From Catenuloplanes atrovinosus (GTDB lineage: Bacteria; Actinomycetota; Actinomycetes; Mycobacteriales; Micromonosporaceae), in contig NZ_JAVDYB010000001.1 in NCBI RefSeq assembly GCF_031458235.1, forward strand, positions 6,514,501-6,578,500: a stretch of 64,000 bases of DNA. The letters are read 5' to 3'. The position numbers were made by a program, and so were the translations under genes. The first letter of the stretch is position 1. Every line of letters starts with the position of its first letter. The notes beneath the pieces are model-generated. The model was not told the origin of the DNA. It saw only the letters and a program-made list of their open reading frames with translations, and made no database searches. Below are positions 9,462-55,301 of the stretch, one piece after another.

Positions 9462-12445
9462 GCCGACCCGGCCGTTTCCAGCTGCTGCTCCGGCGCGCCG
9501 TCCTGGGCGCCGGTACCGGTGAGCTCGTTGATCAGCTTGCTGACCTGGACCGACGCGGTCTGCTGCTTCTGCGTGGAGTCCACGATGCGGCGGATCGACT
9601 CGCCGGTGGAGGCGACGCTCTTGAGGATGTCCGCGAACGCGGCCTGCGCGCGGTGCGAGACCTGCGAGCCCTGGCCGACCCGGGCCGCCGACTCGTGGAT
9701 CAGGTTGCTGATCTCCCGGGCCGCGTCCGAGGAGCGTTCGGCGAGCTTGCGCACCTCGCCGGCGACGACGGAGAAGCCGACGCCGTGCTCACCGGCGCGG
9801 GCGGCCTCGATCGAGGCGTTGAACGCCAGCAGGTTGGTCTGGCTGGCGATCTCGCTGATCACCTTCACGATGGCGGCGATCTGGTCGGACGACTTCTCGA
9901 TCAGGTCGATCGCCTCGATCGACTTACGCAGTTCCTCGAAGCCCTGCTCGGCGTTGCTCTGCGTCTCGCCGGCGAGCCCGCTGGCCTGCTGGGCGTTGGC
10001 GACGATCTCGTCGATCGAGCGGGCCAGCGCCTTGATCGAGGACGCCATGTCGCGGGTCTTGGTGGTCAGCCGCTGCTCCAGCTCGACCTGCTCGGTGACG
10101 TCGTGGGCGTACTTGACCACCTTCACCGGGTCGCCGCGCATGTCGAAGATCGGGTTGTAGCTGGCTTGGATCCAGACGTTCCGGCCGTACTTGCCGACGC
10201 GGTGGAAGCGGCCGGCCAGGTACTCGCCCTTGCGCAGCCGCAGCCAGAAGTCACGGTACTCGGCGGAGGTGATGTAGTCGCTGTCGCAGAGCATGCTGTG
10301 GTGCTGGCCGACCAGCTCGCGCAGCGAGTAGCCGACCGCGCGCTGGAAGTTCTCGTTCGCGGAGAGGATGTTGCCCTCCAGGTCGAACTCGATCACGGCC
10401 TGGGCGCGGTGGATGGCGCGGTCCTTGCTGACGAACTCCGCGTTGCGGACCTTGGCCTCGGTGACGTCCACCGCGTACTTGACGATCTTGTACGGGCGGC
10501 CGTCCAGGTCGAAGATCGGGTTGTACGTGGCCTGGATGTAGACGTCCCGGCCGCCCTTGGTGCGGCGGCGGTACTCGCCGGCGTCGAAGTCGCCGCGGGA
10601 CAGCTTCTCCCAGAACGCGGCGTACTCGCTGGACTTCCCCTCGCTCTCGTCCACGAACATCCGGTGGTGCTTGCCGCGCACCTCGTCCAGCGAGTAACCG
10701 AGCAGGTCCAGGAAGTTCTGGTTGGCGTTCAGCACCCGGCCCTGGAGATCGAACTCGATCACGGCCTGCGCGCGGGAGATGGCGTTGACCTTGCCCTCGA
10801 ACTCGGTGTTCCGGGTCCTCTGGTCGGTGATGTCGGTGGCGTACTTGACCACCTTGAACGGGTGCCCGGAGAGGTCGTAGATCGGGTTGTAGCTGGCCTG
10901 CAGCCACACCTCCCGACCGCCCTTGGCGACCCGCTTGTACTCGCCGGTCTCGAACTCGCCGCGGCCGAGCCGCTGCCAGAACTCGCGGTACTCGCCGCTG
11001 GTCGAGGTGGACGAGTCCACGAACATCCGGTGGTGCTTACCGACGATCTCCGACTCGGCGTAGCCCATCGTCTCCTGGAAGAGCTGGTTGGCGCGCAGGA
11101 TGTTGCCCTTGAGGTCGAACTCGATGACGGCCTGGGAGCGGTCGATCGCGTTGACCTTGCCCTCGAACTCCGCGTTGTGGATCTTCTCGGCGGTGACGTC
11201 GATCGCGTACTTGACGACCTTGAACGGGCGCCCGTTCAGATCGAAGATCGGGTTGTAGGTGGCCCGGAGCCAGACCTCCTTGCCGCCCTTGCCCACCCGT
11301 CTGAACTCGCCGGATTCGAACTCGCCGCGGGCCAGCGCCTGCCAGAAGTTGCGGTACGCGGCGCTGCGCGCCTCCTCGTCCTCGACGAACATCCGGTGAT
11401 GCTGGCCGACGACCTCGGACAGCTCGTAGCCGACCGTGTTCAGGAAGTTCGCGTTCGCGTCCAGGATCGCGCCGGAGAGGTCGAACTCGATCGTGGCTTG
11501 GGCCCGGGAGATCGCGTTGACCTTGCCCTCGAACTCCGCGGTGCGCAGCTTCTGGTCGGTCACGTCCAGCGCGTACTTGACCACCTTGAACGGGCGGCCG
11601 TCCAGATCGAAGATCGGGTTGTAGGTGGCCCGGATCCAGATCTCCCGGCCGCCCTTGCCGACGCGCTTGTACTCGCCGGACTCGAACTCGCCGGCGCGCA
11701 GCCGGTCCCAGAACTTGTCGTACTCCGGGCCCTCCGCGAACGACGGCTCGCAGAGCACCCGGTGCTGCTTGCCGACCAGCTCACCGAGCGAGTATCCGGT
11801 GAGCGAGAGGAAGTTGTCGTTGGCGTGCAGGACGGTGCCGGTCAGATCGAACTCGATCACCGCCTGCGCGCGGTCGATCGCGGCGTACTTGCCCTTCAGC
11901 TCGCCGATCTGACGCCGGTCCTCGGTGATGTCGTACGCGGTGACCAGCACCGTGTCCGAGGTCTTCGCCTCGGCCGGTACGGCGGCGGGCGCGGCGCCGG
12001 CCGCGGAGGCGCTGCTCGCGGTGGCCGCCTCCTTCGCGGCGGCCGCGGCGGCGGCGGCCGAGGTGGCGGCCTTCGCGGGCGCCTTCGCCGGTACGGCGGC
12101 CCGGACCGTCGGCTGCACCGGGCCGCAGTTGAGCCGCAGCCAGCGCTGCCGGCCGTTGCCGTCGCTGATCGAGGTGACCTGCTCGATGAACTCGCCGTGC
12201 GCGGCCGCCTCCAGCAGCCGGTCGACCAGCGGCCCGGGCATCTTCCAGAGGTGTTCGAGCTTGATCCCGACCACCTTGTTGATCGGCATGCCGGCGATCT
12301 CCAGCACCCGTTGATTGACCGCCAGAATCGAACCCGACTTGGCGTGCAGCGTCAGCACGAGACGCTCCTGGAGCAGCAGGCGTAGCGCCGCGCCCTCGAG
12401 CATCTCCCCGCTCTCGGCATTGATCAGCGAACCGGCATCAGCCAC
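9458..12445 (-). CDS. soluble methyl-accepting chemotaxis protein with six PAS domains
   Basis: 995 residues with no membrane segment. A divergent PAS domain occupies about 25-115, followed by an Ala/Pro-rich linker (about 120-170). Five closely similar PAS/PAC units of about 122 residues follow between 188 and 795, each with (R/S)AQAVIEFDL, a YNPI(F/Y)D loop and VVKYA.DVT. The MCP signalling domain spans roughly 800-975 and includes the hairpin-tip region [20 protein letters not shown] and [15 protein letters not shown]. Cytoplasmic multi-PAS receptors (Aer2- or BdlA-like) often sense oxygen, redox state or haem/flavin ligands; the ligand is not evident here. First gene of the operon, coupled to the CheW gene by an ATGA overlap. 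Confidence 0.93.
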
Positions 12446-39621: not shown

Positions 39622-39987
39622 CTAGAGCGCGCGCAGCCCGACCAGCACGCGGCGCAGCAGCTTCTCGGTGGGCGCGGCGGTGGGTGGTTCCCAGGCGGCG
39701 ACCAGGCCGGCGCCGACCAGGTCGCCGAGGAGGACGCGGGCGGTGCCGAGCGGCAGGCCGGCGTTGGCGGCGGCCTCGGCGACGGAGTGGGGGCTGTGGC
39801 AGAGGCGCAGAATCTCGCGCTGTTCCGGCGGGAGCGTGCGGCGGACCCGCGCGCCCTTGCCGGTGGTGATCATGAGGGTGACCAGGTCGAGGTCGCGGGC
39901 CGGGCGGGTGCGCCCGCGGGTGACCGCGTAGGGGCGCACCACCGGGCCGGCGGCGTCGTCGTACCAGGCCTCCTCACCGGATGACAT
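39622..39987 (-). CDS. DUF742 protein (CvnC-like)
   Basis: 121 residues from ATG 39987, overlapping the end of the kinase gene by 14 bases. DUF742 features: RPYAVTRGRTRPARDLDLVT, LPPEQREILRLCHSPHSVAE, AAANAGLPLGTARVLLGDLV and the ending EKLLRRVLVGLRAL, forming a winged-helix-like fold. In Streptomyces conservons this is CvnC, encoded between the roadblock protein CvnB and the small GTPase CvnD. Here neither CvnB nor CvnD follows, so the set is incomplete. Role: probably links a CvnA-type kinase to a GTPase encoded elsewhere, or it has been re-purposed in this membrane-stress locus. Confidence 0.85.
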   Translation of the reverse strand: MSSGEEAWYDDAAGPVVRPYAVTRGRTRPARDLDLVTLMITTGKGARVRRTLPPEQREILRLCHSPHSVAEAAANAGLPLGTARVLLGDLVGAGLVAAWEPPTAAPTEKLLRRVLVGLRAL

Positions 39988-41137
39988 CGACGCCTCGCCG
40001 GGGCCGGGACGGGCCGGAGCCGACCACGTGGCCGGACCGGGCCGGCCCGGCACCGGCCGCGGCGGGTTCGGTAGGTGGCGACGGAACCGTGAGCAGGTCG
40101 CCGGGGATCAGTACGGTGGCGGTGCTGCCCTGCGGGCTGGTCTGCAACGTGACCGTGATGCCACGCCGCTGGGCGAGCCGGGACGCCACGTGCAGCCCGT
40201 GCCCGCGCTGCTGCTCGGTGGCGGTCGCGGGCGCGCGGAGCAGCTCGTTCGCCGCGGCCAGCGCACCCGGGTCGATGGCCGGCCCGACGTCGCGGACCGT
40301 GATCAGCACCTCGCCGCCGATCGGCGTGCAGACCACGCGGACCTGCTGGCCGGGCGCGGCCTCGAGCGCGTTGTCGATCAGTTCGGCCAGCAGGTGGGTG
40401 ACGTCGATCAGCGCCCGGCCGAGCAGCACCGGCCCGCTGACCGGGGCCACGTCCACCCGGTGATAGTCGGTGGCCTCCGCGGCGGCGGCGCGCAGCACGT
40501 CCAGCATCGGCACCGGCTTGCGCCAGCGGCGGGCCGGCGTGCTCCCGGAGAGCGTGAGGTGCTTCTCCACGTTGCGGCGCATGCGGGCGGCGAGGTGGTC
40601 GATGGTGAACAGCCGGGCAAGTTCGTCCGGGTCGGTCTGCCGGCTCTCCACCTCGTCCAGCATGGTCAGCTGCCGGTGCAGCAGCGTCTGGTTGTCCCGG
40701 CCGACGCGCAGCGCGAGCTGCTGGGCATCGCGGCTGATCGTCTCCGCGGTGACCGCGTCGACCGCGTGGCAGGCGAGCGCGTGCAGCGCCTCGCCGAGCT
40801 CCGCGAACGGCCCGTCGACCGGGGGCGGCAGCGCGGTGGCGGGGTCGACCGGCTCGCCGGCCCGGACGCGGCGGGTCAGCTCGGGGACGCGTACCGCGGC
40901 GAGGTCCTCCGCGTAGGCGGCGGCCGCCCGGACCTGGCGGGCCAGCCAGACGATCACGGCGGTGGCCGCGAGCACCAGCACGCCGAGGACGGCGGCGAAC
41001 ACGATCTGGAGCGAGAACGGCGCCGCGCCGGAGCCCGCGCGGGCGGCGGCGTTGCCGGCGGCGTACGCGAGCAGGCCGGCGCCGGTGGGGATCAGGACGA
41101 CCAGCGCGAGCGCGGGTCCGGGGCTGAGGTTCTTCAT
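39974..41137 (-). CDS. CvnA-like sensor histidine kinase
   Basis: 387 residues from ATG 41137 (ATGA overlap with the LuxR gene). Two membrane helices near residues 8-28 and 45-65 enclose a very short outer loop. The helical region has the conservon CvnA signature DEVESRQTDPDELARLFTID and HLAARMRRNVEKHLTLSG, then an HATPase domain with ELIDNALEAAPGQQ, VRDVGPAIDPG and GHGLHVASRLAQRRG. A Pro-rich tail follows. Expected to bind ATP at the inner membrane face; whether it autophosphorylates is uncertain in this family. Co-transcribed with LuxR and Hsp70-like genes. Confidence 0.85.
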   Translation of the reverse strand: MKNLSPGPALALVVLIPTGAGLLAYAAGNAAARAGSGAAPFSLQIVFAAVLGVLVLAATAVIVWLARQVRAAAAYAEDLAAVRVPELTRRVRAGEPVDPATALPPPVDGPFAELGEALHALACHAVDAVTAETISRDAQQLALRVGRDNQTLLHRQLTMLDEVESRQTDPDELARLFTIDHLAARMRRNVEKHLTLSGSTPARRWRKPVPMLDVLRAAAAEATDYHRVDVAPVSGPVLLGRALIDVTHLLAELIDNALEAAPGQQVRVVCTPIGGEVLITVRDVGPAIDPGALAAANELLRAPATATEQQRGHGLHVASRLAQRRGITVTLQTSPQGSTATVLIPGDLLTVPSPPTEPAAAGAGPARSGHVVGSGPSRPRRGVDVIR

Positions 41138-43629
41138 GCCGGCGCCTTCCCGGTGGTGGTGGCGCGCAGCCGGGCCAGCAGCTCCGCGCGGTTGGGCGCG
41201 CCGAGGCGGGCGCGCATGCGGGCGACGTGGTGTTCGACGGTCTTGGGGGTGATGAAGAGCCGGTCGCCGATCTCCTTGTAGGTGAGCCCGGCCAGCAGCA
41301 ACTCCGCGACCTCCTGCTCGCGGGCGGAGAGCTGGCCGGTCGGCGTGGGCTCGGACGCGCCCTCGGCGCGCGGGCCCGGCACCCGTCCCTGGAGCAGGCG
41401 CGCGGTGTCGAGCAGCGTGACCATGGCGCGGCGGTCGGCGGTGCGGGCGGCGGCCTGGCCGGCGAGCCGGGCCGCGTCCCAGGAGAGCCCGGTGCGGGCC
41501 AGGTCGCGGGCGTGCCGGACGACCTGGTCCGGGTCGATGTCGCCGGCCAGCAGGCGGCACCAGCTGGTGGCCGCGGCCGCGAGCACAGCGGTGTGCGCGG
41601 TGGCGCCCGCGTCCGCTGCGAGCGCGTCCGCGTGCACGGCCGCGGTGGCCGCGTCCTCGCCGACCACGGCGGCCTGGAGCAGGTACCAGTGCAGCGTGGC
41701 GTGCCACAGCGGCGGGCGCCCGAGCCGGTCCAGAAGATCAAGAGCCTGCCGCACCGGTACGTCCAGCGCCGCGCGCTCCCCGAGCCGGGCGCCGGCCACC
41801 GTCAGCTCGCCCAGCGGCAGCAGCGTGAGCAGGTCGACCGGGTGGCGCAGCACGGTCTCCCGGGCGGCCGCCCAGCCGCGGTGCATCTCGGGCAGGTCGC
41901 CGGTGCGCCGGGCCAGGCCGATCTGCAGCGCGGTGGCGAACAGCCCGTCGCGCAGCTGGATCGGCGCGCCGCCGGTGGTGGCCGCGGCGAGCAGTTCGTG
42001 CGCGGCCGCGGTGTCGCCGCGGAACATCCGGATCCAGCCGGCCAGCAGCCGGTGGCGGCGGGCCATCAGCACCGAGCCCATGCCGGCCGTGACCGCGCGG
42101 TCGAGCACCGCGTCGGCCGCGTCCAACTCGCCGTCGTGCAACGCGACCAGCGCGGCCAGCGCGGCCGGGCTGTCCGGGAGCAGGACCGCGGGACCGGCCG
42201 GCTCCAGCAGCGCGGCGGCCTGCACGAGCGTGGCGAGCGCGGCCGCGGGCGTACCGCCGATGCTCTCCCGGATGCCGTCGGCCATCATCGCGGCCGCGTT
42301 GGTGAGCAGCGTGGGCGGCCCGTCCACGGCGTCCGGCGCGGCCGCGTCCGGCGAGACGCCGGTGACCTGCGCCGCGAGCGCGGCGAACGACCGCGACGTG
42401 GGGGTACGCGACCAGCGGTACCGCTCCGCGCTGTGCGCCAGCTGGCCGCGGTGCGCGAGCACCGCGGCGGCGACCGCGGCGCCGGCGGCCCGGTCGGTCT
42501 CGGCCGTGGGGCCGGTGCCGGGCGCGCCGACGAGCCGGTCGGCCAGGCGCAGCGCGGTGTCCAGGTCGCCGCCGAGCGCGGTGGCGAGCGCGTGCCGGGC
42601 GCCGGTGGGCGCGCCGCTGGCAGCCGCCGCCGCGAACAGCCGCGCCGCCACCTGGGGCGCGGCGATCAGCGCCTCCTCCGCGCCGGCCTGGAACGCGGGC
42701 GCGAGGCCGCTGCCGCCGATGCCGGCGTCGAGCAGCGAGCGGGCGACCGTGAGCGTGCCGTCGCCGCGGGCCAGTTGGAGCGCGGCGAGCCGCTGCCACA
42801 GGTCGGCGCGGTGCGCGACCGGCCCGAGCGCGGCGACGGCCTGCCGGGCGGCCGGGACCAGCGTGTCGTCCAGCCCGAGCAGCCCGGTGGCGCGCGCGGC
42901 CTCCAGCAGCTCGTCGATCCGGGCCGGCTCGCGGTCGAGCAGCTCGGCGAGCACGTCGATGGGGAGCGCGCCGCCGGCCGCGGTGGCCAGCAGCAGGCGC
43001 CGGACGTCCGGGTCGAGGTGGTCGAGGTCCGCACGGAACTGGAGCAGCGACGTGTCGGTGAGATCCGGCCCGGCCGCGAGCACCGCGGTGATCCGGTGCG
43101 CGATGCCCGGGACGCCGCCGCTGAGCCGGTGCACGCGGGCGGCCAGGCCGGGCGCGGGCGCGTCGCCGGTCCAGGCGTGCACGGCGCGCGCGGTCTGGTC
43201 CGGCGTGAACGGGCCGAGCAGCACGGGCGGGCGTTCCCGGCGCAGGATCGTGGTGAGCGAGGCCAGGCCGGCCGGGCGCGGCCAGGGGCGGTACGCGAGG
43301 ACGAGCCGGCGACGGCCGCCGATCAGCGGGTGCAGCGCGGCCAGACGGCCCTCGTCGAGCAGGTGGGCGTCGTCCACGATCAGCACCGTGTTCTCGCCGT
43401 CGTCGCCGGCGGCGTCGCCGAGCGGGTCGGTCCAGGCGTCCAGCACCGGTACGTCGTGCTCGCGGAGCAGCCCGGCCAGGTAGGAGAGCAGCGCGGTCTT
43501 GCCGTACCCGCCGGGCGCCTGGAGGCAGAGGCGCAGCGGGCCGGTGGGCACGGCCGCGAGGTCGTCGCAGATCCGCGCGACCTGTTCGTCGAGCACCAGC
43601 CAGGACGGTGTCATGGTGCGGATCGTCAC
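41134..43629 (-). CDS. LuxR-family regulator with AAA/STAND ATPase domain
   Basis: 831 residues from GTG 43629, which has a GGAG site six bases upstream; the frame stays open far upstream but without sense. N-terminal ATPase: Walker A APGGYGKT at 38-45 and Walker B VLIVDDAH near 83-89. A long helical-repeat region (about 300-740) follows. The C-terminal LuxR helix-turn-helix reads LSAREQEVAELLLAGLTYKE and IGDRLFITPKTVEHHV. Such MalT-like regulators assemble on ligand or protein binding and then activate promoters. It lies 8 bases after the Hsp70-like gene and is the best candidate to activate the divergent IniB/dynamin operon. Confidence 0.9.
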   Translation of the reverse strand: MTIRTMTPSWLVLDEQVARICDDLAAVPTGPLRLCLQAPGGYGKTALLSYLAGLLREHDVPVLDAWTDPLGDAAGDDGENTVLIVDDAHLLDEGRLAALHPLIGGRRRLVLAYRPWPRPAGLASLTTILRRERPPVLLGPFTPDQTARAVHAWTGDAPAPGLAARVHRLSGGVPGIAHRITAVLAAGPDLTDTSLLQFRADLDHLDPDVRRLLLATAAGGALPIDVLAELLDREPARIDELLEAARATGLLGLDDTLVPAARQAVAALGPVAHRADLWQRLAALQLARGDGTLTVARSLLDAGIGGSGLAPAFQAGAEEALIAAPQVAARLFAAAAASGAPTGARHALATALGGDLDTALRLADRLVGAPGTGPTAETDRAAGAAVAAAVLAHRGQLAHSAERYRWSRTPTSRSFAALAAQVTGVSPDAAAPDAVDGPPTLLTNAAAMMADGIRESIGGTPAAALATLVQAAALLEPAGPAVLLPDSPAALAALVALHDGELDAADAVLDRAVTAGMGSVLMARRHRLLAGWIRMFRGDTAAAHELLAAATTGGAPIQLRDGLFATALQIGLARRTGDLPEMHRGWAAARETVLRHPVDLLTLLPLGELTVAGARLGERAALDVPVRQALDLLDRLGRPPLWHATLHWYLLQAAVVGEDAATAAVHADALAADAGATAHTAVLAAAATSWCRLLAGDIDPDQVVRHARDLARTGLSWDAARLAGQAAARTADRRAMVTLLDTARLLQGRVPGPRAEGASEPTPTGQLSAREQEVAELLLAGLTYKEIGDRLFITPKTVEHHVARMRARLGAPNRAELLARLRATTTGKAPA

Positions 43630-43637
43630 CGTTCTCC

Positions 43638-44981
43638 TCAACCGATCGGTGTGACGGGCGCGAGCGCCCCTATGGCGAGTACGAGAGCGGTCGCGCTCGC
43701 GTTCATCCCCTGTGCCCGGCGGATCCGGCGACGGCCGGGCAGCTCCGGCGTGCTGATCTTCACGGGCGGCCGGGGCGGCGCGTCGGGCAGTTGGCCGCGG
43801 GTGCCGGTCGCCGGGGCGGGCAGCACGGACGGCTCCTGGCCCGGCTCCGGCTCCCAGACCGCGTTGTCGCGCCGGCCGGTGTCCGGTGGCGCGTCGTGCA
43901 GCCCGGCCGCGAGCTGGGCCGCGACCGCGGCGGCGCCCTCGGCGACCAGCGTGCTGCCGCCCGGCGGGAGCAGCGTGACGCCGGGCAGGTGGCCGGCGAC
44001 CAGCTCGGCGAGCAGCGGTGTCTGCGCGAGGCCGCCGGTGAGCAGCACGCCGGCGAGGTGGTGCGGGGGTACGCCGGCCGCCTCCACCACCCGGGCCAGC
44101 GTGGCGGCCGGGTGGTCGAGCAGCGGCCGGGCGAGTTCCTCGAACGTCGCGCGGGTGACGGTGAGCCGGGCCTCGCCGGGGTGCAGCGGCAGGATGATCT
44201 CGGCCTCGTCGGCGTGGCTGAGCTGCTCCCGCGTGTACCGGCACTCGGCGCGCAGCTCGTGCAGGATGCGCAGGTGGCGCTCGTCCGCCGGGTCCAGCGG
44301 GCCGGTCTCGCGCCGGAGCTGCTCGGCCGCGTGGTGGGCGAGCGCCTCGTCCAGGTCGGCGCCGCCGAGCTGTTCCGCACCGGTGCGGGTGGCGCGTACC
44401 GCGTAGGTGATCGGGTTGGTCCGGGTCACGACCGAGGCCTCGTAGCCGGTGCCGCCGGCCGCGAGCACGGCGAGCGCGCGCCCGCCGGTGCCGCCGCGGG
44501 CCGCGTGCCCCTCGGCCGCGAGGACCGGTTCGGGCAGCGGCTCGGCGGCGAGCGCGACGTCGGCGAGCGCGGCGCGCAGCGCGGCGATGTGGTGCGCGGT
44601 GAACGTGGCCGGGTGCGCCAGCACGACGCGGACCGGCGGCTCGCCCTCGCGGCCGTGGATCAGGTCTGTGACGCGGCGGGCCACGATCGCGGTGAGCGTC
44701 TGCGGGGACCAGCGTTCGCCGCGCAGCAGCACGGGCGCGTCCGCGCCGATCCGGCCGGCGAACTCGCGGGCGACCACGCCGGGGCGCAGCACCGGTCCGC
44801 GCTCGGCCGGGTCGCCGACCTGGAGCGAGCCGTCCGGGTCGACGTGCAGGACCGCGGGCGCCTCGTCGGAGTCGCCGCGGAGGCGGACCGGGGCCGGGCG
44901 TTTCCAGCTGCCGTCGACGAGGCGGCCGATGGCGGCCGTGACGTGCGTGCCGCCGATGTCGATGCCGAGCACGTACGCCAT
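43638..44981 (-). CDS. Hsp70-like (DnaK ATPase domain) protein with C-terminal membrane helix
   Basis: 447 residues from ATG 44981. The actin-like ATPase fold shows phosphate 1 motif LGIDIGGTHVTAAIG, RVVLAHPATFT, phosphate 2 region ALAVLAAGGTGYEASVV and the adenosine motif GVLLTGGLAQTPLLAELV. It lacks the DnaK substrate-binding domain and lid. Instead it has a Pro-rich linker and a hydrophobic C-terminal stretch (ALVLAIGALAPV) likely to anchor it in the membrane. First gene of the regulatory operon; its leader holds three successive hairpins. Probably a sensor or chaperone-like switch rather than a general chaperone. Confidence 0.85.
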   Translation of the reverse strand: MAYVLGIDIGGTHVTAAIGRLVDGSWKRPAPVRLRGDSDEAPAVLHVDPDGSLQVGDPAERGPVLRPGVVAREFAGRIGADAPVLLRGERWSPQTLTAIVARRVTDLIHGREGEPPVRVVLAHPATFTAHHIAALRAALADVALAAEPLPEPVLAAEGHAARGGTGGRALAVLAAGGTGYEASVVTRTNPITYAVRATRTGAEQLGGADLDEALAHHAAEQLRRETGPLDPADERHLRILHELRAECRYTREQLSHADEAEIILPLHPGEARLTVTRATFEELARPLLDHPAATLARVVEAAGVPPHHLAGVLLTGGLAQTPLLAELVAGHLPGVTLLPPGGSTLVAEGAAAVAAQLAAGLHDAPPDTGRRDNAVWEPEPGQEPSVLPAPATGTRGQLPDAPPRPPVKISTPELPGRRRIRRAQGMNASATALVLAIGALAPVTPIG

Positions 44982-45431
44982 GCCGCCCCCTCCTCGTCAT
45001 CGCGAGCGGGCGCCCGTAGGACCTCGGGCGCCCGCCCCATCCCTCGTGTGTCCCCTCTCGAGCACCCCTACCCGGGAGAGGGAGCCCTCCGTGGAGGCGC
45101 GTGGGCACACGCTCGCACGGCCGGCCAGGCAGACGGAGTCCGGCCGTGCCCACGGTGGGCTCGGGCCCGCCGGAGCCGCAGCGGGATGGCTGCCGCCGCG
45201 GCTCACGATGATCGGCGAGCTGCATAGTTCGTACCAGAGAGCGTCCAGGGGACGGACCCCACAAAATCGGCGGCGCCCGGAGCCCCTAATCCCCCATCCC
45301 CCACCCCCGGGGTCCCCCAGGGGTCCGGTACGGAACCCGGTCTCGTCCCCGATGTTCCGGGTACCGCACGGCACTAGCTTCGTTCTCGGCAGCCGCTGCC
45401 GACCACCGCGTATCACTGAGAGGCTCCCCCA
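44982..45431. other. divergent regulatory region between Hsp70-like and IniB-like operons
   Basis: 450 bases without a supported gene. The left part contains three consecutive perfect hairpins: 45006-45016/45025-45035 (11 bp), 45053-45059/45076-45082 (7 bp) and 45086-45090/45093-45097 (5 bp). The first ends 25 bases before the Hsp70-like start, so together they form a structured leader on the minus strand. The right part contains C-runs, an imperfect repeat CGGTAC-GGAAC/GTTCC-GG-GTACCG (45326-45366), and TCGGCAG-N3-CTGCCGA (45386-45402), about 30 bases before the IniB-like start. Confidence 0.6.
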
Positions 45432-46352
45432 ATGACTTCGACGCTGCACGACTTCGTGCTGAACCTGATCACCGACCCGCAGGCGCGGACGGTGTTCGAG
45501 CTGGACCCGGAGGCGGCCCTGTGCGCGGCCGGCCTGGGCGACATCACGCCGGCGGACGTGCAGGACGTCGTGCCGCTGGTGGTCGACTACGTGGCCGTGC
45601 CCGGCCTGGCCGGCCTGGCGCTGCCGACCGCGGCGGTGGAGGCGGAGGCGGGCGCCACCGTGTCCGCGACCGCGGTGGCGCAGCTGCAGTCGGTGACCGC
45701 GCACCTGTCGGCCGGCACGCACGCCTCCGGCGACCTGGGCAGCACCGCCGCCGCGGCCGGCCTGGCGATCGACCACAACGGCGTCGAGGTCGGCGTCGGC
45801 GCGCTCTCCGGCCTCGGCCTGGACGTGGCCGCGGACGCGACGGTGGAGGTGCCGCTGGAGCTCGGCGCGGAGAGCGACCTGTCCGCCACGCTGGACGCGG
45901 ACGTGACCGGCGTGGTCACCTCGCCGGTCAACGAGGTCGCCGGCACGGTCTACGACGTGGCGGACACCGCGGGCCTCGGCTCCACGGTGACCGGCGTCGG
46001 CGGCACGGTCGGCGAGCTGGACGGCACGGTGGCCGGCCTCGGCGGCACCGTGTTCGGCACGGTCGGCCTGGGCCTGGACACCGTGGGCACCTCGCTGCAC
46101 GGCGTGACCGGCACGGTCGGCGGCGTGACCACCGGCGTCACCGGCCTCACCGACGGCCTGACCGGGGGCACCGGCCTGGACCACACGCTCGACGGCGTCA
46201 CCTCGACCGTCGACGGCCTGACCGGCACCGCCGCCGGCAGCGGCCTGCACGACGTCACCAGCACGGTCACCGGCACGGTGGGCAACACGCTCTCCGGTGG
46301 TGCCGAGCAGCACGGACCGGATCTGTCGGGCGTCACCGACATTCTGTTCTAA
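45432..46352 (+). CDS. IniB N-terminal-domain protein
   Basis: 306 residues from ATG 45432. Residues 1-50 are the IniB N-terminal domain (TLHDFVLNLITDPQARTVFE, ALCAAGLGDITPADVQDVVP). The rest is a low-complexity Gly/Thr/Val/Leu-rich repeat (VTGTVGGVTTGVTGLTDGLT) that should form a long beta-rich or coil-like structure. In mycobacteria IniB is encoded first in the iniBAC operon, induced by cell-wall inhibitors, with dynamin-like IniA and IniC. The same order is seen here. No signal peptide is evident. Strongly biased composition makes any enzymatic role unlikely; a structural or envelope-contact role is inferred. Confidence 0.85.
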   Translation: MTSTLHDFVLNLITDPQARTVFELDPEAALCAAGLGDITPADVQDVVPLVVDYVAVPGLAGLALPTAAVEAEAGATVSATAVAQLQSVTAHLSAGTHASGDLGSTAAAAGLAIDHNGVEVGVGALSGLGLDVAADATVEVPLELGAESDLSATLDADVTGVVTSPVNEVAGTVYDVADTAGLGSTVTGVGGTVGELDGTVAGLGGTVFGTVGLGLDTVGTSLHGVTGTVGGVTTGVTGLTDGLTGGTGLDHTLDGVTSTVDGLTGTAAGSGLHDVTSTVTGTVGNTLSGGAEQHGPDLSGVTDILF

Positions 46353-46406
46353 TGAGCTTTTTTCAGCCGGGCTAGGATTGCCAGCCAGGTTGAAGAGGCT
46401 CGATCA

Positions 46407-46455
46407 CCACGCCTGCCGCGCGGCCCCGGACTCCGGTGCCGCGCGGCAGGCGTGG
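46407..46455 (+). terminator. 18-bp perfect hairpin between IniB-like and dynamin genes
   Basis: Arms 46407-46424 and 46438-46455 are perfectly complementary over 18 bp; the 13-base loop contains CCGGA/TCCGG. It begins 54 bases after the IniB-like stop and ends 31 bases before the dynamin start. No T tract follows. It may be a partial terminator or a processing or stabiliser hairpin that sets IniB levels above those of the GTPases. Confidence 0.6.
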
Positions 46456-46486
46456 GGGCGCGGAACAGCCGGTGAAAGGAGCGCGC

Positions 46487-48289
46487 ATGGGCGGTCTCGG
46501 CTCAGTCGCGATGCCGATGTGGGTGGACGTCCTCGACGCGGCGGTGCAGGCGTGCCTGGTGCACGGCCGCACGGACCTCGCCGCGACGCTGCGGGCCCGG
46601 CGCGCCCAACTGCTCGACCCCGCGCTGTGGGTGGTGGTGCTCGGCGAGCCCGGCCAGGGCAAGAGCCAGCTCATCAACGCACTGATCAACGCGCCGGTCT
46701 GCCCGGTCGGTGACGCCGGCACGACCGGCACCCCGACCGTGGTCCGGCACGCGGAGCAGCCCGGCGCGCTGCTGGTGCGCAAGACCGCCCGGACCGCGCT
46801 CACCGTGGCCGAGGCGGCGCCGCACATCCGCGGCCGGGAGGCGCTGCGCGCGGAGATCGGCGTGCCGCGCGCGCTGCTGGCCGGCGGCATGACGCTGGTG
46901 GACACGCCGGCGAGCGCGGCCGTGCCGGGCAAGGACTGGCGCGCGCGGCTCGGCGGTCTCGGCGACCATCCGCCGGCCGACACCGTGGTGCTCGTGTCCG
47001 CCGCGACCGCGGAGCTGAGCGTCGCGGAGCTGGACCTGCTGCGCGAGGCGGCGTCGACCGTACCCAACGTGCTCGTCGCTCTGACCAAGACCGACCTGGC
47101 CGCGGACTGGCGCGCGGTCGCGGACCGCAACCGGCAGCGGCTCGCCGCGGCCGGGCTCTCCGCCGCGGTGATCCCGGTGTCCGCGGTGCTGCGCCTGCAG
47201 GCCGCCCGCACCGGCGACGCCGAGCTGAACGCGGAGTCCGGATTCCCGGAGCTGATCGGCCGGCTCAGCCGGGACGTGGCGGCCAAGAGCCAGGGGCTGG
47301 CCCGGACCGCGGCCGCACAGGCCACCCGCGCCGCGCTGGAGCAGGTCGCGACGCCGTTGCGGGCCCGGCTCACCTCCGGCTCCGCGCCGTCGCAGGCGAT
47401 GGCCCGGCTCACCGAGGCGCAGCGCGCGCTGGACGACGTGCGCCGCCGGCAGGTCCGCTGGCAGAACACGCTCAACGACGACATCGCCGATCTGGTGTCC
47501 AACGTGGAGTACGACCTGCGCGACCGAACCCGGCAGATCCTGCGCAAGGTCGACGCCGCGTTCGAGACCGCGGACCCGCTGACCGCGTGGGACGAGTTCG
47601 CCGCGTGGCTGGACCGCGAGCTGAAGGAGGCCGCGGAGGCGAACTTCGGCTGGCTGATCGCGCAGTGCGAGTGGATCTCGCACCGGGTCGCGGCGCACTT
47701 CGGCGAGTACGGCCAGGACGCGCTGCCGACCTGGCGCATGCACGTGCCGGACGACCTGGACCGGCTGGTGCCGGACATCGAGCAGCCCGGCGTGGAGAAG
47801 TTCACCATCACGCAGAAGGCGCTGACCGGGCTGCGCGGCTCGTACGGCGGGATCCTGATGGTGGGCCTGGCGACCAGCCTCGCCGGCATGCCGCTGATCA
47901 ACCCCGTCTCGGTCGGCGCGGGCGCGATCCTCGGCGGCAAGACCGTGCACGACGAGAGCAAGACGCTGCTCAAGCGCCGGCAGGCCGCCGCGCGCACCCG
48001 CACCCAGCGCTACGTCGACGACTTCTTCCTGCTGGTCAGCAAGGAGGGCAAGGACACGGTCCGGCAGGCGCACCGGCTGCTGCGCGATCACTTCCTGGAC
48101 TTGACGGACCGCTTGCAGGACGCGATCGTGCACTCCGTGCGCACCGCGAAACTCGCCGCCGACGCGGACGTGGCCGAGACCGAGCGCCGCCAGCGGGAGA
48201 TCGAGCTCAGCCTCCGCGAGCTGGCCGGCCTCTACCGCCAGGCCCAGCAACTCGGCGACATCGCACAGCCCCTACTCAAGATCGCATGA
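46487..48289 (+). CDS. dynamin-like GTPase (IniA-like)
   Basis: 600 residues from ATG 46487 with AAAGGA six bases upstream. GTPase motifs: G1 GEPGQGKS at 53-60, G2 Thr in GTTGTPTVV, G3 DTPA from residue 139, G4 TKTD at 200-203. Long helices follow (RLTEAQRALDDVRRRQVRWQ) and a hydrophobic segment near 454-485 (GGILMVGLATSLAGMPLINP) suited to membrane insertion like a dynamin paddle. Mycobacterial IniA is a bacterial dynamin-like protein able to act on membranes. Here it forms a pair with the next GTPase, coupled by an ATGA overlap. Expected location: inner face of the cell membrane. Confidence 0.88.
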   Translation: MGGLGSVAMPMWVDVLDAAVQACLVHGRTDLAATLRARRAQLLDPALWVVVLGEPGQGKSQLINALINAPVCPVGDAGTTGTPTVVRHAEQPGALLVRKTARTALTVAEAAPHIRGREALRAEIGVPRALLAGGMTLVDTPASAAVPGKDWRARLGGLGDHPPADTVVLVSAATAELSVAELDLLREAASTVPNVLVALTKTDLAADWRAVADRNRQRLAAAGLSAAVIPVSAVLRLQAARTGDAELNAESGFPELIGRLSRDVAAKSQGLARTAAAQATRAALEQVATPLRARLTSGSAPSQAMARLTEAQRALDDVRRRQVRWQNTLNDDIADLVSNVEYDLRDRTRQILRKVDAAFETADPLTAWDEFAAWLDRELKEAAEANFGWLIAQCEWISHRVAAHFGEYGQDALPTWRMHVPDDLDRLVPDIEQPGVEKFTITQKALTGLRGSYGGILMVGLATSLAGMPLINPVSVGAGAILGGKTVHDESKTLLKRRQAAARTRTQRYVDDFFLLVSKEGKDTVRQAHRLLRDHFLDLTDRLQDAIVHSVRTAKLAADADVAETERRQREIELSLRELAGLYRQAQQLGDIAQPLLKIA

Positions 48290-49641
48290 GCCTCGCCGGC
48301 ACGGTCCAGGCCCTGCTCGACGACACGCTAGCCGCGTACCCCCGGGTCGTGACGCTGCGGCACCAGCGGCACCGGTGGACCGAGCCGCTGCGGGTCGCGG
48401 TCGCCGGCCGGGCCGGGGCCGGCAAGTCAACGCTGGTCAACGCGCTGGTCGGGGACCGGGTCGCGCCGGTCGCGGCGCCCGGCGACAATTGCACGGTCTG
48501 GTATCAGGACGGCTCCGGGCCGCGCGCGACCGCGTACCCGCGGGACGGTGAGCCCTTCGAGCTGCCGCTCACGGTCACGCCGGACGGGCCGCGCACCGGC
48601 CAGATCGACGGCGACCTGGTGATCCACTGGCCGAGCCGGGCGCTGCGCCAGATGACGCTGCTGGACACGCCCGCGGAGGGCGCGAGCCTGGACGACGCGG
48701 ACGCGGTGCTGCACCTGACGCCGGCGGCCCGGCCCGCCGACCTGACGCCGCTGCGCGCGCCGCAGCAGAGCGCGGTCGCGCGGGCCACACCGATCGCGAC
48801 CGTGCTGGTGCTGTCCCGGGCCGACGAGGTCAACGGCGGGCGTACGGACGCGTTCGTCACCGCGCGGCAGATCGCCCGCCGGCACGGCCGCGACCCGGCC
48901 GTGCGCGACGTCTGCCTGCGCGTGCACGCGCTCGGCGGGCTGGCCGCCGCCACCGCCCGCACGCTCACCGACGCGGACTTCGAGACGATCGCGCACCTGG
49001 CCGCGCTCCCCCGCACGGACACCGACGGCGCGCTGCTGAGCACGGACCGCTACCTGCGCGCGGGCCTGCCTCCGGATCTGCTGCACCGGCTCGGGCTGCC
49101 CGGCGTCCGGCTGGCGACCGTGCTGGTGCGTACCGGCCACGACACCCGGCTCACTCTCGCGGGTGAACTCGCGCGCCGCAGCGGCATCACGGAGCTGCGC
49201 GACACGATCAACCGTGGGCTGGTCGCGCGCACCGAGGCGCTGAAGGCCCGCGCCACGCTGCTGGCCATCGAGTCCGCGCTGGACGGGCAGTGGACGCCGC
49301 GCACGGACGCGCTGCGCGCCCGGCTCGGCCGAATCCTCGCCGAGGCGACCGAGTTCCGCGAGATGCGGCTGGTCGCGGCCCTGCCGGAGCTGCCGGTGCG
49401 GTTCACCGCCGAGCTGGAGGCGGAGGCGCACCGGCTGGCCGGCGGCGACGGCACCGACATCCCCTCCCGCCTCGGCCTGGACGAGCCGACCGGCGCGCCC
49501 GCCATGCGCCGCCGCTGCGACGAGGCGCTGCTGCGCTGGCAGGTGCTGGCCGAGGGCGGCACCGCCGACCGCCGCCAGCGCCGCGCCGCCGCGATCGTGG
49601 TGGAGAGCTGCGCCGCGATTCTCGACCGCCTCGGGGTGTGA
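48286..49641 (+). CDS. dynamin-like GTPase (IniC-like)
   Basis: 451 residues from ATG 48286 overlapping the previous stop. G1 is GRAGAGKS (41-48), G3 DTPAE from residue 127, and G4 is a variant SRAD near 177-180 instead of N/TKxD. It lacks the long hydrophobic membrane segment of its partner. Charged helices in the second half (ARLGRILAEATEFREMRLVA) should form the stalk. Bacterial dynamins often work as heterologous pairs of a membrane-binding and a helper subunit; this gene fits the helper, as IniC does in mycobacteria. The altered G4 may weaken guanine specificity. Confidence 0.86.
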   Translation: MSLAGTVQALLDDTLAAYPRVVTLRHQRHRWTEPLRVAVAGRAGAGKSTLVNALVGDRVAPVAAPGDNCTVWYQDGSGPRATAYPRDGEPFELPLTVTPDGPRTGQIDGDLVIHWPSRALRQMTLLDTPAEGASLDDADAVLHLTPAARPADLTPLRAPQQSAVARATPIATVLVLSRADEVNGGRTDAFVTARQIARRHGRDPAVRDVCLRVHALGGLAAATARTLTDADFETIAHLAALPRTDTDGALLSTDRYLRAGLPPDLLHRLGLPGVRLATVLVRTGHDTRLTLAGELARRSGITELRDTINRGLVARTEALKARATLLAIESALDGQWTPRTDALRARLGRILAEATEFREMRLVAALPELPVRFTAELEAEAHRLAGGDGTDIPSRLGLDEPTGAPAMRRRCDEALLRWQVLAEGGTADRRQRRAAAIVVESCAAILDRLGV

Positions 49642-49671
49642 GTTCATCCCCGCCCGGTACGGTTCTGCACC

Positions 49672-51165
49672 ATGCGCATGGTCTGGACCGACGCACCCGA
49701 GGACGACTTCTATCCGGCCCGCGACCGCCTGGTCGACGCGTTCACTCGGTGGGCGCGCCGCGCGGGGCGGGACGTCGACCCGTTCATGGCCGAGGTCCTG
49801 ATCGAGCAGCGCTGGAGCGTCGGCGACGGCCGGCTGTGCCGGTGGCAGCCGGACGACCTGCGGTACGCGCTGCTCGAGTACTTCCCGCGCGGCGTCACCA
49901 CCCGGGAGTGGTCGGACACGATCCCCACGATGCACGCGTTCGTGGACTTCCTGTTCGACGCGGACCTGGCGGACGCGAAGTGCGCGGACGCGGACGTGCT
50001 GCACGCCGTGCTGAACGGGCTGGCCGCCGCGTTCGACGCCGCGATGGCGGACGAGACCCGGTACGGCCCGGCCAAGTTCTGGTCGATGCGCATGCTGGAC
50101 GCCGGCATCAACCTCGACGACCAGGACGCGATGAGCGCGTTCATCGCGGACGTGCAGGCCGGCAAGGTCCCCTACGACCAGACCGTGCTGGACCGGGTTG
50201 TGGAGAACCAGCTGACCGAGGAGGACGAGACGCCGCCCGCGCTGCCGCCGATCGACCCGCCGACCGCGGGCGAGGTCGCCGACGCGGCCGCGGAGTCGAT
50301 CGCGCTGACCCGGCTGCTGCGCTTCACCGAGTGGGTGGGCGAGGGCCGCGAGCTGACCCGCGGCGGCGCGCTCACGCCGGACGACGCGGCCGAGGTGAGC
50401 GCGCTGATCGACCCGGCGAGCGACGACGGGGCGTACGAGGCCGCGCTGGTCCTGGCGTGGGCGCGGGAGGCCCGGTTCGTCCGCGTGGTCAAGGGCCGGC
50501 TGGTGCCGGTCAAGGCCGCCGCGAAGCTGGTCACGGACCGCGTCGCCGCCGCCCACCGCGCGTTCGAGGCGTTCCACCTGATCGGCCGCGCCGTGTGCCC
50601 GCCCGACGACCGGGAGTCGATCGTGCCGTACCGCGCCGACGACTTCACGTTCGCGCTGCTGATGGCGATGTACCTGGCGCAGCGGCCGATCGAGTACGAC
50701 GAACTGGAGGAGATCGTGGGCCACCTGGCCGATGACTTCGCCGGCGCCGGGCCCGGCCCGGAGGACGCGGCGGCCCGCGACGTGCAGCTCCTGCTCACCC
50801 AGCTGGACCTGCTCGGCGCGATCCGGCACGACCCGGCCCGCACGTCGCTGACGCCGTTCGGCACCGCGCTGTTCCAGCGGCACCTGCGCGGCATGGGCAT
50901 CGACGTGCCCACCGTCGACGACGTGCTCGACGAGACCGCCGAGGTGGTGGTGGCACTGGCCGCGGACACGCCGACGATCGCCGGCCCGCTGCTCACCCGC
51001 TGGCGCGACCACCGCCCGGAGGCGGCGGTCGCGGAGCTGCGCGCGCTCGCCGCCCGCACGGACGACCCGGAGCACCGCGCGCTGGCCGAGACCTACGGCG
51101 GCCGTCGCCTCGCCTCCCGGCCGCACGCGGTCTCGGCCCGCCGCCCCAAGAAGCGCCGACGATAG
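49672..51165 (+). CDS. hypothetical protein linked to dynamin operon
   Basis: 497 residues from ATG 49672, 30 bases after the IniC-like stop and so probably in the same transcript. Soluble and largely helical. Recognisable only in part: the N-terminal 140 residues (WSVGDGRLCRWQPDDLRYAL, FVDFLFDADLADAKC), a middle acidic linker (EEDETPPALPPIDPPTAGEV) and a C-terminal region with possible winged-helix parts (LLTQLDLLGAIRHDPARTSL). The tail is very basic (RRPKKRRR). Such proteins are common as unnamed actinobacterial genes. A role in DNA or RNA binding is possible from the tail; nothing more can be claimed. Confidence 0.7.
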   Translation: MRMVWTDAPEDDFYPARDRLVDAFTRWARRAGRDVDPFMAEVLIEQRWSVGDGRLCRWQPDDLRYALLEYFPRGVTTREWSDTIPTMHAFVDFLFDADLADAKCADADVLHAVLNGLAAAFDAAMADETRYGPAKFWSMRMLDAGINLDDQDAMSAFIADVQAGKVPYDQTVLDRVVENQLTEEDETPPALPPIDPPTAGEVADAAAESIALTRLLRFTEWVGEGRELTRGGALTPDDAAEVSALIDPASDDGAYEAALVLAWAREARFVRVVKGRLVPVKAAAKLVTDRVAAAHRAFEAFHLIGRAVCPPDDRESIVPYRADDFTFALLMAMYLAQRPIEYDELEEIVGHLADDFAGAGPGPEDAAARDVQLLLTQLDLLGAIRHDPARTSLTPFGTALFQRHLRGMGIDVPTVDDVLDETAEVVVALAADTPTIAGPLLTRWRDHRPEAAVAELRALAARTDDPEHRALAETYGGRRLASRPHAVSARRPKKRRR

Positions 51166-52796: not shown

Positions 52797-55301
52797 ATGT
52801 CAACGGGGGTCGAATTCCGGCTGCTCGGGCCCTTCGAGGTGCTCGCGGGCGGGGACGCCGTCCGGCTCGGCGGGCGGCGGCAGCGGCTGGTGCTGGCCAC
52901 GCTGCTGTTGCACAACAACCACCCGGTGGCCGGCCGCGAGCTGGCCGCCGCGGTGTGGGGCGACGCGCCGCCCGCGACCGCACGGCGTCAGGTGCACATG
53001 GCCGTCTCCATGCTGCGGCGGGCGCTGGGCCGGGTGCCGTCCTGGGGCGAGTTGCGCACCGAGCCCGGCGGCTACCGGCTGTGCGTCCCGGACGAGCGGA
53101 TCGACGCGGCGCGGTTCCGCGCCGCGGTGGCGGCCGGCCGGCGGCTGGTCCGGGACGGCGACCCCGCCGGAGCCGCGCAGGCGTTCCGCGCGGGTCTGGT
53201 GCTGTGGCGCGGCCCGGTCCTCGCCGACCTGGACGGCGCGGTGCGGGATCGGGCGGCCTGGCTGGAGGAGATGCGGCTGACGGCGCTGGAGGACTGCCTG
53301 GAGTACGAGGTGGCGGGCGGCGCGTCCGCGTCCGTGGTGGAGGAGCTGTCCGCGCTGGTCGACCGGCATCCGCTCCGCGAACGGCTGGTCGCGTCGCTGA
53401 TGCTGGCGCTGAGCCGGCACGGCCGGCAGAGCGAGGCGATCGCGGTGTACCGCCGGACCGCCGACGTGCTCGCGGACGAGCTGGGCGTCGACCCGTCGTC
53501 CGCGCTGGCGGAACGCTTCACCGAGATCCTGCGCACGGCGCCGGCCGCCCCGCCGCCGGGCGATGCGCCCGTGGTCGTGGACTGGCAGCCGGTACGGCCT
53601 CGTCAGCTCCCCATGCCCCGGTCCGGGTTGGTGGGGCGCACCGCCGAGTCCGCGGTGCTGGACACGCTGCGGCAGCCGGATGACGACGGCCCGCGGCTGG
53701 TCGTGGTGCAGGGCACGGCCGGCGTCGGCAAGACCGCGCTGGCGCTGCACTGGGCGCACCGGGTGGCCGCGCACTTCCCGGACGGCCAGCTCTACCTCGA
53801 TCTGCGCGGCTTCGACGCCTCCGGCGCGCCGGTCGCCCCCGAGGAGGCGTTGCGGCAGTTGGTCGAGGCGCTGGGCGTACCGCCGGAGCGGGTGCCCGCC
53901 GGGGTGCCGGCGCGGGCCGCGCTGTTCCGCAGCGTGCTGGCGGACCGCCGGGCGCTGCTGGTGCTGGACAACGCGCGCGACGCGGAGCAGGTGCGCCCGC
54001 TGCTGCCGGGCGCGCCGGGCTGCCGGACCGTGGTCACCAGCCGGGCCGAGCTGACCTCGCTCGCCGTCACGGACGACGCCCGCCTGCTGCTGCTCGGCCT
54101 GCTGCCCGAGGACGCCGCGTTCGCGCTGCTGGCGGCCCGGCTCGGCGAGGAGCGGGTGCGGCGGGACGAACCGGCGGCCCGGGAGATCGTCCGACGGTGC
54201 GCCGGGCTGCCGCTGGCCCTGACGGTGATCGCGGCGCGGGCCGCGGCGCGGGCGTCGTTCCCGCTGCGCACGCTGGCCGACGACCTGGCCGCGGACACCC
54301 CGCTGGACGTGCTGGCCGGTGGCGCGCCGGCCGCGGACGCCCGGGCCGCGATCTCCTGGTCGTACCGGACGCTGGGGGTGCGGGCCGCGCTGCTGTTCCG
54401 CCTGATCGGGGTGCACGGCGGGCCGGACCTGAGCGTGGCCGCCGCGGCCGGGCTGCTCGGCCTGCCGGTCGCGGCCGCGCGGGACACCGTCCGCGAGCTG
54501 ACCACCGCGCATCTGGCGGTCGAGCACGCGCCGGGCCGGTTCGCGCTGCACGACCTGCTGCGCGCGTACGCGGTGGAGCTGGGCCGGGACCGGGCCACGG
54601 ACGCCGCACCGGCCCTGCGCCGGCTGATCGACCACTACCTGCACAGCGCGTACGCCGCGGTCCGGATGTTCACGCCCCGGCTCGCCCGGGTCGAGCTGCC
54701 GGAGCCGGCCCCGGACACGGTGGTGGAGCGCCCGGCCGACAGCACGGCGGCGTACCGGTGGTGCGACCTGGAATATCCGAACCTCGTCGAAACGGTACGG
54801 ACCACCGGCGCGCACGGGCTGCACACCCACCGCTGGCAGCTCGTCTGCGCGCTCGGCGGCTTCCTGGACCGGCGCGGGTGGCGGGACGACGCGGTCCGGC
54901 TGCACGAGTCGGAGCTCGACCGGGCCCGCGCGTCCGGTGACGTCCGCGCGCAGCGGCACCTGCATCACGCGCTGGGCGTGCTGCAGAAGCGTCACCGGCT
55001 GCTGCGGTCCGCCGACCGGCACCTCGCCGCCGCGCTGGAGCTGTGCCGCCGGTCCGGCGACGAGGGCGGGGTCGCGGACGTGCTGACGGACACGGCCGTG
55101 CTGCGCGTCCACGAGGGACGCGACGGCGACGCGGTCGCGCTGGCGGAGACCGCGCTCGGCTACTACCGGCAGCACGACGAGCCGGCCAACGAGGCGATCG
55201 CGCTCAACGTCCTGGGGTGGAGCACCGCGCAGCTCGGCGATCACCTGCGCGGCATGCTGTACCGCACGGCCGCGCTGAACCTCCAGCCGCCGGGCTCCTG
55301 A
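52797..55301 (+). CDS. AfsR/SARP-type regulator with NB-ARC and TPR domains
   Basis: 834 residues from ATG 52797. Domains in order: OmpR-like winged helix (about 1-95, VEFRLLGPFEVLAGGDAVRL, RRQVHMAVSMLRRALG); BTAD helical domain (about 100-245, DAARFRAAVAAGRRLVRDGD, ELGVDPSSALAERF); NB-ARC ATPase (about 290-560, Walker A GTAGVGKTAL near 306, LLVLDNARD, RRCAGLPLALTVIAARA); C-terminal TPR helices (from 690). This is the AfsR class that activates secondary-metabolite or developmental genes after nucleotide-driven assembly. No biosynthetic cluster is in the window, so its target is elsewhere or it is global. Confidence 0.93.
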   Translation: MSTGVEFRLLGPFEVLAGGDAVRLGGRRQRLVLATLLLHNNHPVAGRELAAAVWGDAPPATARRQVHMAVSMLRRALGRVPSWGELRTEPGGYRLCVPDERIDAARFRAAVAAGRRLVRDGDPAGAAQAFRAGLVLWRGPVLADLDGAVRDRAAWLEEMRLTALEDCLEYEVAGGASASVVEELSALVDRHPLRERLVASLMLALSRHGRQSEAIAVYRRTADVLADELGVDPSSALAERFTEILRTAPAAPPPGDAPVVVDWQPVRPRQLPMPRSGLVGRTAESAVLDTLRQPDDDGPRLVVVQGTAGVGKTALALHWAHRVAAHFPDGQLYLDLRGFDASGAPVAPEEALRQLVEALGVPPERVPAGVPARAALFRSVLADRRALLVLDNARDAEQVRPLLPGAPGCRTVVTSRAELTSLAVTDDARLLLLGLLPEDAAFALLAARLGEERVRRDEPAAREIVRRCAGLPLALTVIAARAAARASFPLRTLADDLAADTPLDVLAGGAPAADARAAISWSYRTLGVRAALLFRLIGVHGGPDLSVAAAAGLLGLPVAAARDTVRELTTAHLAVEHAPGRFALHDLLRAYAVELGRDRATDAAPALRRLIDHYLHSAYAAVRMFTPRLARVELPEPAPDTVVERPADSTAAYRWCDLEYPNLVETVRTTGAHGLHTHRWQLVCALGGFLDRRGWRDDAVRLHESELDRARASGDVRAQRHLHHALGVLQKRHRLLRSADRHLAAALELCRRSGDEGGVADVLTDTAVLRVHEGRDGDAVALAETALGYYRQHDEPANEAIALNVLGWSTAQLGDHLRGMLYRTAALNLQPPGS

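Follow-up and report, generated by a model that had tools for sequence, protein, structure and literature searches.

A predicted iniBAC/IniR-type locus in Catenuloplanes atrovinosus with a conserved Hsp70-like partner and a candidate promoter box array

The window analysed here, a 64-kb stretch of the 8.9-Mb genome of Catenuloplanes atrovinosus, carries at positions 39622 to 51165 a locus that resembles mycobacterial iniBAC with its regulator IniR. All eight open reading frames (ORFs) were confirmed at the positions given in the earlier note on this DNA. The locus was compared with 393 Actinomycetes genomes (the class sample; search cut-offs of E 1e-40 for IniR, E 1e-60 for IniA, and E 1e-8 for the IniB N-terminal profile IniB_NTERM), with a second sample of 61 relatives, and with 141 mapped loci, among which some genomes appear twice and part were chosen as best matches. 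Genes and sequence elements are listed below in window coordinates.

39622..39987, minus strand: DUF742 (CvnC-like) protein, 121 amino acids (aa), lineage add-on (PF05331, E 9.9e-33; 30 of 141 loci)
39974..41137, minus strand: CvnA-like protein with a histidine-kinase-type ATPase domain, 387 aa, lineage add-on (HATPase_c, E 6.1e-13; 31 of 141 loci)
41134..43629, minus strand: IniR homologue, STAND ATPase with a LuxR-type helix-turn-helix, 831 aa (NF038181, E 1.1e-124; GerE, E 9e-15)
43638..44981, minus strand: Hsp70-like nucleotide-binding-domain protein, 447 aa, degenerate active site (PF00012, E 5.5e-19 over profile positions 103 to 350 of 599)
45228..45239, minus strand: conserved element TTCGTACCAGAG, possible promoter element, reading CTCTGGTACGAA towards the Hsp70-like gene
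45283..45294, plus strand: distal tandem box CCCCTAATCCCC, putative IniR-binding array (single occurrence in the genome; CCCCTAA in 102 of 118 iniB upstream regions)
45347..45354, plus strand: promoter-proximal box CCCCGATG, 28 nucleotides (nt) upstream of the predicted -10 element
45375..45380, plus strand: predicted iniB -10 element TAGCTT (CCCCGAT-TANNNT spacing)
45432..46352, plus strand: IniB homologue, 306 aa (IniB_NTERM NF038175, E 2.7e-19; 68.9 bits against a cut-off of 40)
46407..46455, plus strand: GC hairpin between iniB and iniA, 18-bp perfect arms and 13-nt loop (sequence and fold)
46487..48289, plus strand: IniA-like dynamin GTPase, 600 aa (solved Mycobacterium smegmatis IniA, 6j72, E 1.8e-89; Dynamin_N, E 9.2e-9)
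48286..49641, plus strand: IniC-like second dynamin-type GTPase, 451 aa (MMR_HSR1, E 4.2e-5, above the Pfam cut-off; Dynamin_N, E 2.8e-4, below it)
49672..51165, plus strand: 497-aa protein without a family match, nearly Catenuloplanes-restricted neighbour

Two operons diverge from a 450-nt spacer between the Hsp70-like gene and iniB. The Hsp70-like gene is separated by 8 nt from the LuxR-type regulator gene (iniR), which joins the kinase gene at an ATGA junction, and the DUF742 gene overlaps the kinase gene by 14 nt. In the other direction, IniB heads the operon, IniA and IniC follow in that order with an ATGA overlap, and the gene for the 497-aa protein starts 30 nt after IniC. Coordinates and profiles bear out both of these arrangements as the earlier note had described them.

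The LuxR-type protein matches NF038181 (isoniazid response ATPase/transcriptional regulator IniR) over residues 19 to 825. Because it is a full-length IniR homologue, we place the locus among iniBAC/IniR-type systems, and because its score of 418 bits (417.6) lies below the NCBI equivalog cut-off of 750, we call the protein a homologue and, judging from sequence, the system a variant rather than the equivalog. Residues G40, G41, G43, K44, D86, and D87 are invariant across 11 aligned IniR sequences, the window protein included. Since mycobacterial IniR binds directly upstream of iniBAC and activates the operon (PMC5760070, in the part of the text used here), the window protein is likely an activator of iniB, which supports a proposal of the earlier note. 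That note had correctly seen an 831-residue LuxR regulator with a P-loop ATPase; the IniR identity and the promoter array had gone unrecognised. By homology, the known roles transfer to this locus, namely activation by IniR and membrane cutting by IniA as seen in vitro.

Direct repeats of CCCCTAA, and a CCCCGATG box 28 to 29 nt ahead of TANNNT, precede iniB, an arrangement that is new here. It was examined in 151 iniB upstream regions, reduced by similarity and length to 118. In these, CCCCTAA occurred 161 times in sense and twice in antisense orientation (mean of 2.8 in 50 Markov shuffles), with the sense copies spread over 102 regions, and it was 250-fold denser than in the rest of the same loci (duplicates included). 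CCCCGAT was present in 70 of the 118 regions and was followed by TANNNT 28 nt on in 31 cases and 29 nt on in 33. With this anchor (66 found), boxes fell near -66, -58, and -33, and GG stood at -8/-7 in all regions with enough sequence. In the window, the iniB transcript would be expected to start at about 45387. The window's CCCCTAATCCCC occurs once in the genome, at the listed site; a reversed-pattern control likewise occurs once.

A strict double box, CCCCTAANCCCCTAA, had 6 matches in the 61 relatives and 20 in the class sample. Of the 25 unique sites in the two samples, 23 lay in IniR-containing genomes, and all 23 stood ahead of a co-oriented IniB-domain gene, at 149 to 284 nt with one at 561 nt; six of these genes were far from iniR or on a different contig. 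Round the two sites in IniR-less genomes, the fetched sequence contained no IniB domain. As 16 of the 18 class genomes with the strict double box belong to one genus, the sites cannot be counted as independent. Within that genus, g40, which we take to be the mycobacteria, the tally, which was also tested statistically, was 16 of 19 genomes with IniR against 0 of 8 without. The array boxes have a TCCCC core in common with the reverse complement of the Escherichia coli MalT box, GGGGA(T/G)GAGG (quoted in PMC7567727, in part). The boxes are most likely landing sites to which IniR would bind.

IniR was found in 41 of the 393 class genomes. IniA was found in 54, among them all 41 with IniR, and IniB_NTERM in 40, every one with IniR, and in none of the other 352. 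In stretches fetched round the 41 class-sample IniR genes, IniB, IniA, and IniC were each present in 39 (L170 and L174 are situated at the ends of contigs, and L172 is without IniB). An Hsp70-like ORF lay near IniR in 40 of the 41 loci, always on the IniR strand, at 69 to 6857 nt (within 7 kb) and at less than 1 kb in 30; several of these matches are partial (e.g., L170, L174, and L176). Over the 141 mapped loci, the counts were 136 for the Hsp70-like protein, 128 each for IniB and IniA, 127 for IniC, 31 for the CvnA-like kinase, 30 for DUF742, and 6 for the 497-aa protein. The genes occur in several orders: divergent as in the window, with IniR beyond IniC, all co-directional, IniA-IniC facing IniB-IniR-Hsp70, or IniR-IniA-IniC-Hsp70. 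Among the 61 relatives, 21 Hsp70-like matches exceeded 340 bits, the next match listed reaching at most 271; 19 of them were in IniR-containing genomes, 17 of these in the iniR locus, and the IniR-containing relatives G020, G022, and G050 had no match above 340 bits.

In statistical tests, conservation of the locus genes across genomes far exceeds chance. Judged by this conservation, the core comprises five genes, those for the Hsp70-like protein, IniR, IniB, IniA, and IniC, not four. The survey of co-conservation had been set beforehand as the test of whether the two divergent operons form one system, as the earlier note claimed, and with 41 IniR-containing class genomes and 141 loci it upheld that claim. 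The eight-gene unit did not survive, in that the kinase, DUF742, and the 497-aa protein fall outside the core. As a separate observation, 13 class genomes (G056, G072, G074, G105, G107, G120, G125, G181, G217, G269, G333, G426, and G443) hold IniA-like dynamins at these cut-offs without IniR or IniB; these may be either a separate dynamin lineage or the system minus its regulator.

The Hsp70-like protein contains an Hsp70 nucleotide-binding domain and aligns to DnaK residues 1 to 351 (2v7y, E 1.2e-22). No substrate-binding domain was seen, the Pfam match stopping at profile position 350 of 599 and the protein ending at 447 aa. Lys70, Asp194, and Thr199 are catalytic residues of DnaK-type Hsp70, and their equivalents in the window protein are lost (A, A, and G); at Asp8, Lys70, Glu171, Asp194, and Thr199 together it reads D, A, E, A, G. 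Among 120 distinct, nearly full relatives, with partial ones dropped, all five equivalents are kept in 19 (Ser counted as Thr) and at least one is changed in 101. The window protein is thus probably a pseudo-ATPase, and the loss of the three residues is new here. The 120 proteins form a clade apart from DnaK and four paralogues of the same genome (FastTree support 0.81, modest), within which the 19 intact proteins and two others form a single clade (support 0.71, modest). The C-terminal hydrophobic stretch of the window protein lies just below the hydropathy cut-off, and those of three of four congeners lie just above it; a transmembrane (TM) helix near residue 450 with a tail beyond is predicted in family f8, genus g40, and some other members. 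Of the membrane-anchored Hsp70 ATPase-domain protein proposed earlier, the Hsp70 domain therefore stands, the anchor is marginal by hydropathy, and the ATPase is doubtful in view of the degenerate active site. Two further observations concern this gene. The element at 45228-45239, in the part of the spacer nearer the Hsp70-like gene, is GATCTCTGGTACGAAC-like, and 58 exact copies of TGGTACGAA were counted in the regions upstream of 132 Hsp70-like genes (related ones kept). In genus-g40 loci L145, L146, L147, L149, and L151, Hsp70-like ORFs flank iniR on both sides.

IniB, of which this genome holds a single gene, consists of an N-terminal helical domain and an acidic, Gly/Val/Thr-rich low-complexity tail. 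The per-residue confidence score (pLDDT) of an AF2 model is 83 to 93 in blocks over residues 1 to 40 and below 50 over most of the remainder. The tails of IniB proteins of the mapped loci (45627-46352 in the window) are nearly free of Lys and Arg, at 0.7% together, and an LLGxTDxLF-like motif terminates several of those displayed. Unlinked iniB paralogues (L195, L196, L200, L206, L208, and L212) each stand behind a double CCCCTAA box, and in L195 at least the tail is long and made of Gly-rich repeats.

Also new here is a GC hairpin found repeatedly in the iniB-iniA gap. In the window, a 75-nt stretch folds at -57.5 kcal/mol, and by eye no T-run follows. Perfect inverted repeats of at least 9 bp were found in 78 of 117 iniB-iniA gaps (related ones kept) and in 5 of 117 single mononucleotide shuffles, and their sequences vary between lineages. 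Mycobacterial RNA-seq might favour IniB in high amount over IniA and IniC (PMC5760070, in part); a decay or partial-termination boundary at the hairpin would explain such an excess. Downstream, IniA is related to a protein that mediates GTP-dependent membrane fission in vitro (PMC6715688). IniC, directly after it, is a P-loop GTPase that also matches a profile built here at E 3.3e-144, the window protein being among the members of that profile.

We favour, with roughly even credence, a five-gene module in which the Hsp70-like protein restrains IniR, IniR acts on the boxes, the hairpin favours IniB, and the dynamins reshape the membrane. The Hsp70-like nucleotide-binding-domain fold, to which many relatives add a predicted TM helix and an outer tail, would be a docking or sensing platform that keeps resting IniR inactive, much as MalK and MalY act on MalT. 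MalT is tethered to the membrane by MalK and kept from oligomerising by MalY (PMC10427625, in part). Restraint until envelope damage, as by MalK on MalT, is the most likely role of the Hsp70-like protein, a guess drawn from how the genes are ordered and co-inherited, from the loss of the active site, and from the MalT precedent. Envelope damage would release IniR, possibly by way of a sugar ligand, as has been suggested for the mycobacterial regulator; trehalose induces mycobacterial iniBAC (PMC5760070, in part). Freed IniR would assemble on the direct-repeat CCCCTAA boxes and, close to the -35 region, on the CCCCGATG box, and would bring RNA polymerase to iniB. The hairpin after iniB would allow an excess of IniB over the downstream dynamins, and the IniA-IniC pair would then cut or reshape, and perhaps repair, the membrane. 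A bolder version, which we advance tentatively and with more doubt than belief, has a dedicated Hsp70 fold, devoid of catalytic activity and in many lineages tethered to the membrane, gate an NLR-like STAND activator that fires membrane-repair dynamins through a MalT-like array, with unlinked iniB paralogues in the regulon.

Several observations weigh against restraint of IniR by the Hsp70-like protein and action of IniR on the boxes, beginning with the IniR score below the equivalog cut-off. The Hsp70-like protein appears not to be indispensable, because no such ORF was present in the sequence fetched for L161, the locus of an IniR-containing class genome, and several matches elsewhere are partial. 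To our knowledge, M. tuberculosis appears to be without it. Two of the matches above 340 bits lie in genomes without full IniR (G027 and G044), and no TM helix is predicted for the named Micromonospora members. As for the boxes, the strict double box is absent from this genome, where the window has a looser form, and is found in only 16 of the 41 IniR-containing class genomes; its reversed control matched once among the relatives and seven times among the class genomes. The iniB genes of rearranged lineages are poorer in boxes (none in L140 and L162, one weak box in L141), and the Hsp70-like genes of L057, L173, and L178 have boxes upstream. Actinoplanes MalT was reported on an inverted, not a direct, repeat (PMC7567727, in part).

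The Hsp70-like protein could instead be a positive partner that folds, loads, or assembles IniR, or that acts at the membrane together with IniB and the dynamins. Chaperones fold, load, and assemble eukaryotic NLR-type STAND proteins. The constant position of the gene on the IniR strand (40 of the 40 class loci that have it, 30 of them at less than 1 kb), its place beyond IniC in some lineages, and the 19 of 120 relatives with all five examined residues intact would suit such a partner. In contrast, the alteration of at least one of these residues in the other 101, among them the window protein, and the lack of any substrate-binding domain seen in the latter argue against a classical chaperone cycle, and we regard a positive role as rather unlikely.

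A regulator other than IniR might bind the CCCC boxes, which we find improbable. Lsr2 is a further regulator of mycobacterial iniBAC. HpoR also acts on that operon, with the motif CAGAC-N7-TGTCTG (PMC13413693, in part). The boxes, however, track IniR over 393 genomes and inside one genus, accompany unlinked iniB paralogues, have the TCCCC core of MalT boxes, and do not resemble the HpoR motif.

That the kinase-DUF742 pair is the damage sensor to which the remainder responds is very hard to credit: the pair is translationally coupled to IniR in the window, and the kinase occurs in 31 and DUF742 in 30 of the 141 loci, but these are all Micromonosporaceae loci, profiles found it in no others, including all family f8 and named Pseudonocardiales loci, and the five neighbouring ORFs between 36.4 and 39.4 kb gave no roadblock (CvnB) or GTPase (CvnD) match at E 0.001. 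The 497-aa protein had no Pfam match over the cut-off and no NCBIfam match; among the 61 relatives it is full-length only in five genomes of the genus, with weaker matches in three others. Elsewhere in the window, a BTAD/NB-ARC (SARP-STAND type) regulator lies just past the cluster (52797-55301), and an MCP-type signalling protein with five PAS stretches is encoded at 9458-12445.

The kind of system described here is known; new are a predicted operator and, as a core partner, a protein that had been neglected. The action of cell-wall antibiotics is classically read out through the iniBAC response. The parts of the iniBAC literature used here state neither what keeps IniR inactive nor which sequence it binds; in those of PMC5760070, the link to an Hsp70-like gene is mentioned, in one sentence on a dnaK-like gene adjoining iniR in M. 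smegmatis, and not pursued further. The conserved partner and the predicted array can be followed across several actinomycete families, so that both questions lend themselves to direct tests in harmless soil strains. If true, the gating of a STAND protein by a pseudo-Hsp70 would give bacteria an unusual parallel to immune receptors that are under chaperone control.

The window shares with mycobacterial iniBAC and IniR (Rv0339c/MMAR_0612; PMC5760070, in part) the IniB N-terminal domain, IniA then IniC, and an adjoining STAND/LuxR IniR; no box array is described for mycobacterial iniBAC in that part. It differs in the placement of iniR in a divergent operon behind the Hsp70-like gene, in its single iniB, and in the added kinase, DUF742, and 497-aa genes. 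With E. coli MalT (PMC10427625, in part), it shares a STAND activator with a DNA-binding effector domain and, by prediction here, several sites per promoter, and restraint by membrane or cytosolic partners would have its counterpart here. In contrast to MalT, the partner would be an Hsp70 fold rather than MalK, MalY, or Aes, and the targets would be dynamins. Conservons (cvn) of Streptomyces include CvnA, CvnB (roadblock), CvnC, and CvnD (GTPase). As in these, a CvnA-like kinase and a CvnC-like DUF742 protein are adjacent in the window, whereas CvnB and CvnD were not found beside the pair, which is tied to iniR. Like paired bacterial dynamin-like proteins (PMC6104087, in part), the window has two dynamin-type GTPases per operon, in this case accompanied by IniB and next to a STAND regulator.

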